This document shows positions 11,855 to 15,556 of a stretch of DNA of 43,403 bases, one piece after another; the stretch's first letter is position 1; each line of letters begins with the position of its first letter. This stretch comes from Gemmatimonadota bacterium (GTDB taxonomy: Bacteria; Latescibacterota; UBA2968; UBA8231). Under the pieces are notes generated by a model that was not told the origin of the DNA, did not search any database, and saw nothing but the letters and a program-made list of their open reading frames with translations. Where the stretch lies: NCBI GenBank assembly GCA_002724215.1, contig PBOD01000170.1:1-43403 (forward strand), written 5' to 3'. The position numbers and the translations under genes are program-made.

Positions 11855-12538
11855 TTACGGACCTTCGGCTTCGGCTCTGGGCTCCAACCGTCGCAAGACG
11901 GCTTGTTCCACTTGCTCGTAATCTATCTTTCCCGTCCACTGCGCGACGATCTGGCCTTCCCGGTCGAGGAGAAACATCGCGGGAATCGCCTTGACCTTGA
12001 ACTGGTGCCAGGCGGGCGTCTGTTTCGCATCGACAAAAATCGGATAGGAAATAGCCAATTTCTCAGCCATCGGCCCTATTTTTTTGATCCGATTGTCGTC
12101 CTCGTCTATAGACACGCCCAAAACTTCAAAGCCCCTTGCGGCATAAGCGCTGTGGAGTTTTTGCAACCGGGGCATGGTTTCGCGGCAGGGCTTGCACCAC
12201 GTCGCCCAGAAATCCACGAGTACTATCTTGCCCCGAAAATCGGCCAACGACCGGTCCCCGCCCTCGAGCATTTCGATGAAAAAGGCGGGGGCGGGCCGCG
12301 GAAAGACCGGCGGCAAGTACGCCACGGGATCGGCGTCGAATTCTACTTTGCACTCTTCGGAGCAGAAATAGTAGGCCTTGCCCTGGTGCTGCGAATGGGC
12401 TCTGACTTTCTCCAGCTCCGTCTCGCCGCCCTTCAGTGCGCATACGCTGCAAAGCGCCTTGGCGGGCATTTTCGCGTTGGCTGCCAGTGCTGCTGTGCTC
12501 ATCAGGATAAGTGTGAACAACGAGGTCAAATAGCGCAT
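11855..12538 (-). CDS. secreted YHS domain-TlpA-like thioredoxin fusion
   Basis: A 227-residue exported protein. Residues 1-20 form a signal peptide (MRYLTSLFTLILMSTAALAA). Residues 25-77 are a YHS-type metal-binding domain with C30-x-x-C33 and GKAYYFCSEECKVEF (Cys59, Cys63). Residues 80-220 are a TlpA/ResA-like thioredoxin with WCKPC (Cys115/Cys118) and the cis-Pro segment KAIPAMFL. Such thioredoxins reduce or exchange disulfides in the periplasm, and YHS domains are linked to metal (often copper) binding. The fusion suggests redox or metal handling of an envelope protein. It starts 12 bases after the barrel gene with GGAGGAG upstream, as the last gene of the lyase operon. Confidence 0.85.
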   Translation of the reverse strand: MRYLTSLFTLILMSTAALAANAKMPAKALCSVCALKGGETELEKVRAHSQHQGKAYYFCSEECKVEFDADPVAYLPPVFPRPAPAFFIEMLEGGDRSLADFRGKIVLVDFWATWCKPCRETMPRLQKLHSAYAARGFEVLGVSIDEDDNRIKKIGPMAEKLAISYPIFVDAKQTPAWHQFKVKAIPAMFLLDREGQIVAQWTGKIDYEQVEQAVLRRLEPRAEAEGP

Positions 12539-12550
12539 CGCTCCTCCGCG

Positions 12551-13213
12551 TTAAAATCCGGCAGAAAATGATATGCCCGGGGTGTCGAGCCATACGCACA
12601 TCAAGCTGACGCCGTAGCGCTCGGTAAAGTAATTCAGCATCGCGTGTCCACGGTTGCCATCGTACATCGGCCGCAGCGAAAAGCCCTTGCCCAACTCGAT
12701 GCCAACGCCCAGCGGGAAGTTGAAGCTCCCGTCCCATTCAGAATAATTCAGGCTGCCGTAAAAAGACGTGCGCAATCGGGGCACGTATTTGCTTACGGTC
12801 GCGAAATAAGATTGCTCGCCGGCCGGGGAACCGATGCGATCGGAACTGGTGCCGAAAAAGAGCGCGGGCCGCGCCTCTGTTTCCGTCAGCAGAAACAGCG
12901 TCACCAGCGGTCCGATCTCTGCGGCCCTGGGGTTGACTTCGACCCCGACTTGCAACTGTCGATGCAGGCTGTAATTGGCGGTGAAACGCCATTGCGGGCG
13001 GGCGAGTGACGTGTCCACGTAGCGCCCTGAAAAAGTGAACCTGCTGTGAATGCCGCTCCCCCGGAGCGGTGCGCCTTCGCCCGGTCAGCCCACTCAGGTG
13101 GGCGTCATGGCAAACACGGGGCGTTCGACCTGTGTGGAATCCGCCGGCGCTTCCCGTGCGAAAAGGGGGGCTGCGCCTAGGTAGAGCGGTAAGATCAATA
13201 GTAGAAGTTTCAT
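12551..13213 (-). CDS. small outer-membrane beta-barrel-like protein, interrupted by two in-frame TGA codons
   Basis: The ATG at 13213 lies 3 bases after the heparinase stop and gives a textbook signal peptide (MKLLLLILPLYLGAAPLFA, then REAPADSTQ). The same frame then meets TGA at 13094-13096, GTG GGC, and TGA at 13085-13087, and stays open to 12551. The downstream part shows alternating strands (SRFTFSGRYVDT, WRFTANYSL, LRTSFYGSLNYSEWDG, ISFSAGF) and ends in Phe, as outer-membrane barrels do. Without the TGA codons it would be about 220 residues. An annotator would probably start the body at GTG 13018 (155 residues), losing the signal peptide. Possible explanations are a pseudogene, sequence error or UGA recoding. 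No function is recognised; it sits between the lyase and YHS-TlpA genes. Confidence 0.6.
13053..13096 (-). other. paired in-frame TGA codons with downstream SECIS-like hairpin
   Basis: On the minus strand, TGA GTG GGC TGA (13096 to 13085) is followed by a hairpin CCGCTCC-GGG-GGAGCGG (13069 to 13053), with a perfect 7-base-pair stem and a 3-base G-containing loop. The loop begins 22 bases after the second TGA and 31 after the first, within the spacing known for bacterial selenocysteine insertion elements. If decoded, it would read U-V-G-U, a U-x-x-U motif. GC-rich DNA forms such hairpins by chance, so this is only a candidate. Confidence 0.3.
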
Positions 13214-13216
13214 CTT

Positions 13217-15556
13217 TCACTGCTCCGCTATGCCGTCGTCGTCAACGTCGTAAATCACCCTGTTTATCGACAGCCGAATAAGAGCTGCGGACGCGTGCTC
13301 TCGATAATCAATGCCCTTGCCCTGGTTGACCAGAACCAGATCGTCACCCACGGCGGCGACCTCGGTCTCGCCCGCCAATCGCGCATCGACCACGGGTGCC
13401 TGCAAGTACTCGTGCTCCAAACACAACACCACCCCCAAATTGCGTTGTGCAACCTCGATACCCGTAGGCGTAAACCGCAAGTGATATTGCTGTCGCCACT
13501 GGGCGCTGTCCTTACCGCGCATCGGGGGCGGGTCCCATCCTTTGCTCAGAGAAAAGAAACCCGTTTTGTGGCACATCACGTGTCCGCGCAGCAGGCTCGT
13601 ACCCCGTCTGGCCCAGAACATCCGCTGTTCATCGGTTTCGAATTTGGCCCACGAGTGGATATTCCATTGCAGGGCGGAGGCGATGTCCGGCTTGGCGACG
13701 AATTCATCGACGATAACAAAGTACTGTAGCTGTTTGGCGAAAACCACATGCCGGCGGTAGCGTGCGGCTCGGTCGGTGTAGCTGGCGTCGGCCGTGCCCT
13801 TGAGATAGACCAATCGGTCGTCTTCAAACGCGTTTTCGATGGCGCCGGTCGATTCGGGGGACCGCATTAATTGGGACGCGTCGGATAAGGTCGCACAGTT
13901 GTGCGATTTGGTATGCCAGACCCAGTGCGCGTGGTGGTCGGACCCGTAGCCTGCGTAATAGCCGCTCGGCATCGCCATCACCTGCCCCCCGACGTGCAGG
14001 ATAAAGTCATTATTGTTGGCGTGGGAATGGCTGATCGACCCGAAGGGCGAAGACCTGAAAATAAAGGCGATGTCCCTCCTGGCATCTGCCATGTCGGTGC
14101 GAATGGCGGCCCAGCCGACAGCGGCGAAAGTCCGCAACACCTGCCCGTCGTCGTTAATTGCCCGAGCGTTTTCGGCAGCAGGTTGCGGCGCGGTGAGCAA
14201 TTCAGAGGAAATCCCCGGCATTGCGCGCTCCGCAGGCGTCGTCATATCCTGCGCTTCCTCGCGCAGCGCTGCGGCATATGCGGAAAACTCCGAGGTCCCC
14301 GTCTCCCGTCCGATCAGATCGACCAGGTCCGCGCCCCGGGTCCAGGCGTCGCGCCACCGCTCCGAGTGGTCGCCGAAGCCCATCCACTGGGCATAAGGCG
14401 GTAAGATGTACTGACGCCAGCGGGCGTGATTGCGCCAAAACGGTCGCTGGTAGAGATCGACGCCCGCCCCCCGTTTTAAAACCGAAGCAAACATGGCCAT
14501 AATCTGGACATAAGCATTGGCATAGGACGGCCCCTGGGCCCAGCCCCCATCATCACCGGCCCAACTCGGCCACAGCCCGCACAACACCGGGCGCAGCCAC
14601 GCCAGCCACTCCACGGCTGCGGGGATATGCTCGTGGAAGGTGAGGGCGATATGAGCCAAAAACACGATCTCCCGCCCCGCATGCGAATCAAAGCGCGTAA
14701 TTCCGTATGTCCCGCGATCGTGCATGTGCTCATAGGTGAGTTCGCCGCGGCGTCTGAACTGCTCGACCACCAGCGCTCGTTCGGCGTCGGTAAACTGGTC
14801 CCAGACAAAATCACACGCGTGACACCCATGCCAGATCACCGACATATGGGCTTCGTCGTTATGCCCCAGATAACTCGAGCCTTCGGGGTCCCAGCGGGCG
14901 ATAGACGCCATGCGCTGGCAGGCTGCTCGCGCATAGGCGACATGCCCGGAGGCCAACCAGGCCATCCCCAACGTTTCAGCTCCCTTTACAAATCGGCGCG
15001 ATCCCCACATGGTGGGGTACCACACCTGCCAGAATGCTTCGTAGTCCACCGTCCGGTCCGCCAGAAAGGCGGGTTCTTCGATGGTGTGGGGTTCGGCCAA
15101 TACCGAGTCGGCGACGGCGCGCAGCCGCCGGTCGATCGGCTCATCCGCCGCTGCTCTTTCCGCGCGGAATGCGGCGAGATTTTCGGGGCGCAGCAACAAG
15201 CGCGGATGTCCAGCGGAAAAGCGCCGGAGCCATTCCTCGACCAGGGGGACTTCCAAAACAACCGATGTCGCGCTTATCTCGAATTGGAAGATCTCAGATG
15301 TAGCATCGCCCTGCGACCAGCGCCAGAAATATATCCCTATGTCGAATGACTCTGCGGGCAAAAACACGGAGTCGCTCAAATCCCGGATGTCGAGGCAGAT
15401 GTCGCTGAACACCGAATCGCGGGCGATCTCCAGGCGGCACGTCGGCCCGGATTGAACCGGCTTCCACGCAAATACGGGGGGATTGGTCCCGGGGCGGGTG
15501 CGATCGCGCGGTTGGCGCGGGTCGATATGTGGGTGCGGGTGCCGGTTGCCTTTCAT
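13217..15556 (-). CDS. heparinase II/III-like polysaccharide lyase with DUF4962 N-terminus
   Basis: A 779-residue protein of the heparinase II/III superfamily, whose members cleave uronic-acid glycans (heparin/heparan sulfate, alginate oligomers and related) by beta-elimination. Residues 20-110 resemble the beta-rich N-terminus of DUF4962 (PPVFAWKP, FYFWRWSQGD type). An alpha/alpha toroid follows (about 115-440), with LLRPENLAAFRAER and GDDGGWAQGPSY. The beta-sheet domain (about 470-770) contains FGSISHSHANNNDFILHVGG and WHTKSHNCATLSD, typical of the family. No clear signal peptide is seen, so it may act on imported oligomers. It starts 3 bases after the GH-A gene and ends 3 bases before the barrel gene, so translation is probably coupled. 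Confidence 0.85.
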   Translation of the reverse strand: MKGNRHPHPHIDPRQPRDRTRPGTNPPVFAWKPVQSGPTCRLEIARDSVFSDICLDIRDLSDSVFLPAESFDIGIYFWRWSQGDATSEIFQFEISATSVVLEVPLVEEWLRRFSAGHPRLLLRPENLAAFRAERAAADEPIDRRLRAVADSVLAEPHTIEEPAFLADRTVDYEAFWQVWYPTMWGSRRFVKGAETLGMAWLASGHVAYARAACQRMASIARWDPEGSSYLGHNDEAHMSVIWHGCHACDFVWDQFTDAERALVVEQFRRRGELTYEHMHDRGTYGITRFDSHAGREIVFLAHIALTFHEHIPAAVEWLAWLRPVLCGLWPSWAGDDGGWAQGPSYANAYVQIMAMFASVLKRGAGVDLYQRPFWRNHARWRQYILPPYAQWMGFGDHSERWRDAWTRGADLVDLIGRETGTSEFSAYAAALREEAQDMTTPAERAMPGISSELLTAPQPAAENARAINDDGQVLRTFAAVGWAAIRTDMADARRDIAFIFRSSPFGSISHSHANNNDFILHVGGQVMAMPSGYYAGYGSDHHAHWVWHTKSHNCATLSDASQLMRSPESTGAIENAFEDDRLVYLKGTADASYTDRAARYRRHVVFAKQLQYFVIVDEFVAKPDIASALQWNIHSWAKFETDEQRMFWARRGTSLLRGHVMCHKTGFFSLSKGWDPPPMRGKDSAQWRQQYHLRFTPTGIEVAQRNLGVVLCLEHEYLQAPVVDARLAGETEVAAVGDDLVLVNQGKGIDYREHASAALIRLSINRVIYDVDDDGIAEQ

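Follow-up and report, generated by a model that had tools for sequence, protein, structure and literature searches.

The window examined here, a stretch of 43,403 nucleotides, carries on its reverse strand a gene that very probably encodes an intact, exported outer-membrane barrel selenoprotein, whose U-x-x-U centre would be re-reduced by the TlpA-type thioredoxin encoded next to it. No protein or mass-spectrometry data are at hand. The reading frame, the equivalence of selenocysteine (Sec) and Cys, the covariation of the hairpin, the Sec machinery and the partnership by operon and by fusion come from sequence comparison. The features referred to below are the following.

12551..13213, reverse strand: UxxU outer-membrane barrel gene, 220 residues with both UGA codons read as Sec, stop codon TAA at 12551-12553
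13157..13213, reverse strand: predicted signal peptide MKLLLLILPLYLGAAPLFA, from inspection of the translation only; helix at residues 2-14 in the structure model
13094..13096, reverse strand: UGA codon 1 (Sec40), a TGA or a Cys codon in every homologue reaching the site
13085..13087, reverse strand: UGA codon 2 (Sec43), a TGA or a Cys codon in every homologue reaching the site
13052..13102, reverse strand: motif PTUVGUPGEGAPLRGSG at residues 38-54, which the alignments show to be the family's invariant core
13053..13069, reverse strand: SECIS-type hairpin CCGCTCC-GGG-GGAGCGG, with a 7-bp stem, a GGG apical loop and -11.5 kcal/mol
12554..13039, reverse strand: 12-stranded beta-barrel domain, residues 59-220, in the AlphaFold2 model; the last residue is aromatic
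11855..12538, reverse strand: partner gene, with a signal peptide, a YHS domain and a TlpA/ResA-like thioredoxin domain with WCKPC

Translation from ATG 13213 to TAA 12551 gives a single frame with exactly two internal stops, which are separated by GTG GGC in the in-frame string TGA-GTG-GGC-TGA. A preliminary description of this DNA had placed the signal peptide and the barrel body in one frame split by this string, and the translation agrees. The read-through product consists, in this order, of the signal peptide (called by eye, with no prediction program behind the call), the segment ERPVFAMTPT-U-VG-U-PGEGAPLRGSG and the barrel. The tight coupling to the neighbouring genes claimed earlier is also seen in the coordinates: the upstream heparinase-like gene has its stop TGA at 13217, 3 nt ahead of the barrel ATG, and the next gene starts with ATG 12538, 12 nt past the end of the barrel gene. 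Standard gene calling would cut the barrel short at the first UGA.

Among 60 relatives, nine full-length homologues from the same phylum were found, 53-80% identical and each with exactly two TGA codons, and in their alignment the motif PT-U-x-G-U-PGEGAPLRGSG shows no variation. A contig search yielded five loci, four of which were genes already found, the fifth being from a Thermoanaerobaculia MAG. In the phylum of this MAG, the Acidobacteriota, a sweep of 396 genomes gave a match in 28, with two TGA codons at 26 places and mostly with the motif VP[SA]-U-P[LV]-U-PGEG. One Acidobacteriota class (that of G424) has a barrel match in 47 of 162 genomes (29%); both TGAs are present at all 42 places reaching the motif, the other nine places start downstream of it, and each of the 30 loci read has U-P-[LV]-U. 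A match in G061 (E 9e-4, one TAA) was judged to be due to chance, and no barrel was found on plasmids. The selA-positive genome G036 contains a broken barrel remnant (contig C911, L017), of which approximately 59 residues can still be matched, with loss of the frame at either end; a fragment resembling a thioredoxin lies close to it.

Eight distant homologues show CPxC at the position of UxxU: L044, L065, L070 and a further five found in the class of G415. Sec-only and Cys-only profiles, kept unmixed, matched with E-values of 4.6e-10 and 9e-16, and CPVC was aligned on UxxU. No Cys form above approximately 20% identity was found, and the Sec/Cys pairing therefore rests on remote homology. Neither a mixed U/C pair nor Trp was seen at the two sites among the homologues, so that the comparison of the two positions proposed earlier returned TGA/TGA or Cys/Cys and no other residues. 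Two marks of bacterial selenoproteins, an in-frame UGA conserved in diverged homologues and the replacement of Sec by Cys (here in all eight distant homologues), are thereby met.

The alternative that the gene is a fresh pseudogene with two nonsense mutations, or an assembly error, had been raised together with the selenoprotein reading. Standard gene finders do see stops here, G036 does carry its broken copy, and some partial matches in the class of G424 are probably remnants. However, the same two TGAs recur in dozens of genomes that were assembled independently, so an assembly error is excluded, and the homologues with Cys at both sites speak against a pseudogene. The barrel downstream of the UGAs is under purifying selection: dN/dS after the second UGA is mostly 0.05-0.16 where dS is measurable and 0.195 in the closest pair, i.e., approximately 0.05-0.2, with no further disruption of the frame, and this refutes the two-mutation scenario. 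A pseudogene or an assembly error thus retains practically no credibility.

Published constraints on bacterial SECIS elements include a loop of 3-9 nt, a stem of 4-16 bp, a G in the first two loop positions, a distance of 16-37 nt from UGA to loop and a minimum free energy of at most -7.5 kcal/mol (PMC13188914 Fig. 2A). The hairpin in the window meets this consensus with its 3-nt GGG loop, 7 bp and -11.5 kcal/mol, the apical loop lying 22 nt downstream of UGA 2 and 31 nt downstream of UGA 1. The 7-bp hairpin with a G loop reported earlier is present and its spacing compatible with a bacterial SECIS (PMC13188914), but it is the apical loop, not the hairpin, that lies 22 bases after the second TGA; the hairpin itself starts at the 16th base. 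As a single sequence, the hairpin was set aside as evidence. It carries little weight because 8.5% of all TGAs in the GC-rich window precede a 7-bp hairpin of such geometry and its folding z-score is only -1.15, which is ordinary for GC-rich DNA. Rfam gave no match on the window at the gathering threshold.

Covariation was assessed in a gapless alignment of 36 sequences against 500 shuffles. The stem is paired in 86.5% of the cells, and 39 stem cells are changed on both sides vs. 15.2 in shuffles. The covariation score is 0.376 vs. 0.138, a value reached by none of the 500 shuffles, and slid structures did worse than the hairpin itself. Examples of compensatory and synonymous stem changes are CTC/GGG to CTT/GGA and CCG/AGC to CCA/AGT; preservation of the stem through compensatory change, as expected of a bacterial SECIS, is thus met. 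In 25 sequences a second form, GUC.CGC-CGUGA-GCG.GAC, is found, in which T/C on one side of the stem is matched by A/G on the other in all the sequences listed. That the barrel family has two hairpin shapes counts against the selenoprotein reading; both lie within the published constraints (PMC13188914). Judged from the alignments, the conservation of the TGAs in dozens of diverged homologues together with the covariation of the hairpin lies far beyond chance.

All four components of the Sec machinery, selA (match 5.5e-138), selB (above the cut-off), selC/tRNA-Sec and selD, are present in the source genome, as expected of a bacterial selenoprotein; their absence would have counted against it, as the preliminary description had pointed out. 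The tRNA-Sec has the anticodon TCA and is the sole match over its cut-off. The selD gene of this genome (G000:C67:23980-24903, L033) is itself a selenoprotein gene with one in-frame TGA in the GGU-ASK site and its own hairpin downstream. Across the genomes, selA was found in all 35 with a Sec-type barrel vs. 76 of the 109 others (Fisher p 2.4e-5, not corrected for relatedness; the selA match of G005 is truncated at a contig end), an association weakened by the fact that selA is common in these phyla regardless of the barrel. In the class of the window, selA occurs in nearly all genomes and the barrel in only about one quarter. Among the tested genomes with a Cys-type barrel, selA is absent in G059 and G193 and present in G415.

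These data also bear on the possibility that UGA is read without selenium as Trp, Cys or another residue, through codon reassignment or a suppressor. In its favour, any read-through would leave the frame open. UGA is, however, a normal stop in the window, since 8 of the 17 genes checked end with it; the only tRNA-Sec match over the cut-off is genuine and has the anticodon TCA; the substitute in homologues is always Cys and never Trp; and the hairpin covaries. Such a reading appears highly improbable. The selenoprotein reading, in contrast, is strongly supported over the pseudogene by the sel genes, the Sec/Cys equivalence, the conserved TGAs and the hairpin covariation, with the reservation that it rests on sequences and not on protein or mass-spectrometry data.

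The gene following the barrel was described earlier as thioredoxin-like. Its product has a predicted periplasmic redoxin domain with WCxPC and thus belongs to the TlpA/ResA type; the YHS domain spans approximately residues 49-77, with Cys ligands from residue 30 on. In all 12 comparable loci (L076-L087), this YHS-TlpA gene directly adjoins the barrel. The heparinase and AcrB genes were not found beside the barrel in these loci, and the remaining neighbours tested are unrelated and change between loci. The flanking heparinase and AcrB were rejected as functional partners because neither is conserved beside the barrel. On the evidence of gene order, the thioredoxin neighbour is the key partner and the heparinase neighbour incidental.

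In many Acidobacteriota the thioredoxin, with WATxCxPC, is fused N-terminally to the barrel, and the UGAs sit downstream of a complete TlpA domain and ahead of the barrel. In some fusions UPLU is immediately preceded by a His-rich linker, and CC motifs are seen in L051. The UPGU barrel of G131 (L050/L088) is itself directly fused to a YHS domain, and a YHS-TlpA protein is encoded separately, immediately upstream. In G059 (L044/L089) the Cys-type gene comes after genes for a rhodanese lipoprotein-like product and for a YHS protein, and is followed by one for a small CPLC protein. Many fusions have, ahead of TlpA, an unassigned N-terminal domain with a C-x-x-C-W, GQ[IV]xC pattern; in one of them, L058, residues from approximately 25 to 130 gave no Pfam match, and similar fusions behave alike.

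It could also be argued that the locus consists of two cistrons, a signal-peptide-like leader ending at the UGAs and a barrel restarting downstream, e.g., at GTG 13018. An ORF of 155 aa (12551-13018) does exist, but its product would be without the signal peptide and strand 1, and also without the segment in which conservation across the family is highest. Moreover, the position of the UGAs in the fusions and the continuous ORFs of the Cys homologues speak against a restart, and there is very little left to recommend it.

Outer-membrane proteins usually end in an aromatic residue. The AlphaFold2 model of the barrel has 12 strands (pLDDT 85.3, pTM 0.78) and places U40 and U43 before strand 1, the confidence for the UxxU segment being only moderate (block means of pLDDT 73-81). 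A signal peptide, here recognized by inspection only, and an even-stranded barrel are what is expected of an outer-membrane beta-barrel, and both are met. Foldseek matched the model to FapF, NanC and KdgM, which are likewise 12-stranded outer-membrane barrels, although no sequence kinship to them is detectable; the TM-scores of 0.44-0.51 point to a shared barrel class, not to homology. Among solved structures no sequence kin of the barrel was found above chance. In the model of a TlpA-barrel fusion, UxxU lies in a flexible, poorly predicted linker, where the TlpA domain could, by inference from the model, reach it.

With the selenoprotein reading, both UGAs would be decoded as Sec by SelB and the tRNA-Sec(UCA), with one SECIS hairpin reaching both codons. 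The product would carry Sec40-Val-Gly-Sec43 on a periplasm-side N-terminal segment, just before strand 1. Export of the barrel to the outer membrane is inferred, and so is the diselenide/diselenol chemistry, by which the U-x-x-U pair would act as a dithiol-like centre that forms a diselenide when oxidised. Re-reduction by the TlpA domain of the periplasmic thioredoxin from the next gene is inferred as well; this putative reducing partner additionally bears the metal-binding YHS domain.

What the centre acts on can only be guessed, with no direct evidence. Ions of a soft metal (Cu, Hg or Ag) are suggested by the YHS domains and by the His-rich linkers and CC motifs of fusions; this is a tenable guess without being a probable one. 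A reducible oxidant or chalcogen compound is a guess of the same standing, the two readings being about equally likely. We tentatively propose, as a possibility short of an even chance, an outer-membrane-anchored, thioredoxin-driven diselenide relay, in which the N-terminal U-x-x-U, invariably two Sec in one lineage and two Cys in another, carries electrons or ions of soft metals between YHS-TlpA and the outer membrane's periplasmic face. If true, the relay would amount to an outer-membrane system built on a double-selenium centre of an unlisted type, widespread in Acidobacteriota. The same selenoprotein might instead be a general thiol/peroxide or selenite/tellurite reductase unrelated to metals: redox enzymes constitute most selenoproteins (PMC13188914), the partner is a TlpA/ResA-type reductase, and Geobacter depends on the porin ExtI to reduce selenite and tellurite normally (PMC5877670). 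Against this stand the three settings in which YHS recurs (as a neighbour of the barrel, as a fusion to it and as a neighbour of the Cys form) and the His-rich linkers and CC motifs, which point to metal binding. A non-metal reductase remains a tenable reading, though not a probable one.

In a tree built from 36 barrels, a starred branch among the fused Acidobacteriota forms sets apart the split-gene clade, which has 10 rows on the Latescibacterota side and 4 on the Acidobacteriota side. The tree is midpoint-rooted and its base is open. The patchy presence of the barrel in the phylum of the window suggests, as an inference, that it was acquired there by transfer.

No model in Pfam or NCBIfam (June 2026) matches the barrel, and it is not listed in the 2026 catalogue of 119 selenoprotein families, in which UxxU occurs only in Prx-like, mercuric-reductase-like and FmdB proteins and the only barrels are the MtrB/PioB and TonB types. 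Open-access literature on a PGEG motif with selenocysteine, or on selenoproteins of Acidobacteriota or Latescibacterota, gave nothing matching. On the absence of a Pfam or NCBIfam match and of a catalogue entry, the UxxU barrel is apparently a new, uncatalogued selenoprotein family, as far as the open-access literature goes. The prokaryotic selenoprotein inventory would thereby gain an apparently unlisted family that always has two Sec, with U-x-x-U chemistry located in a barrel of the outer membrane that has a physical link to its likely reductase. The two hairpin forms and the two UGAs 9 nt apart provide a test case for one SECIS decoding neighbouring Sec codons, and the natural Cys/Cys version helps to ask why both positions change together.

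Several known proteins share single traits with this family. The TonB-dependent receptor of the FCYXU type (NF049945) and the MtrB/PioB GSU2204 type (NF041027) are also Sec-bearing outer-membrane barrels, listed with a single Sec and either CxxU or no stated motif (PMC13188914 Table 1). NF041115, a putative mercuric reductase with a metal-binding UxxU, shares the motif and possibly soft-metal binding but is a different protein; the barrel belongs to none of these three models, as no NCBIfam family was matched at E up to 1. ExtI, a porin-like outer-membrane protein of Geobacter encoded beside a proposed selenoprotein gene, is a different and larger protein of 45.2 kDa, approximately twice the size of the barrel (PMC5877670). 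The partner domain, with WCxPC, is in the same superfamily as the TlpA/ResA/DsbE thioredoxins and the WAxxUGC TlpA-like selenoproteins (NF041054), but the Sec residues are here in the barrel and not in the thioredoxin active site; neither the family libraries nor the literature searched contained a UxxU barrel with a TlpA domain fused to it. SelL/Prx-like selenoproteins (PF00578, NCBIfam NF040769) share two Sec in U-x-x-U and the expected diselenide redox chemistry. Membership in that group would require a thioredoxin/peroxiredoxin fold around UxxU, which the barrel does not meet: in SelL the motif lies inside the thioredoxin fold, whereas the outer-membrane barrel described here bears it on its N-terminal segment.
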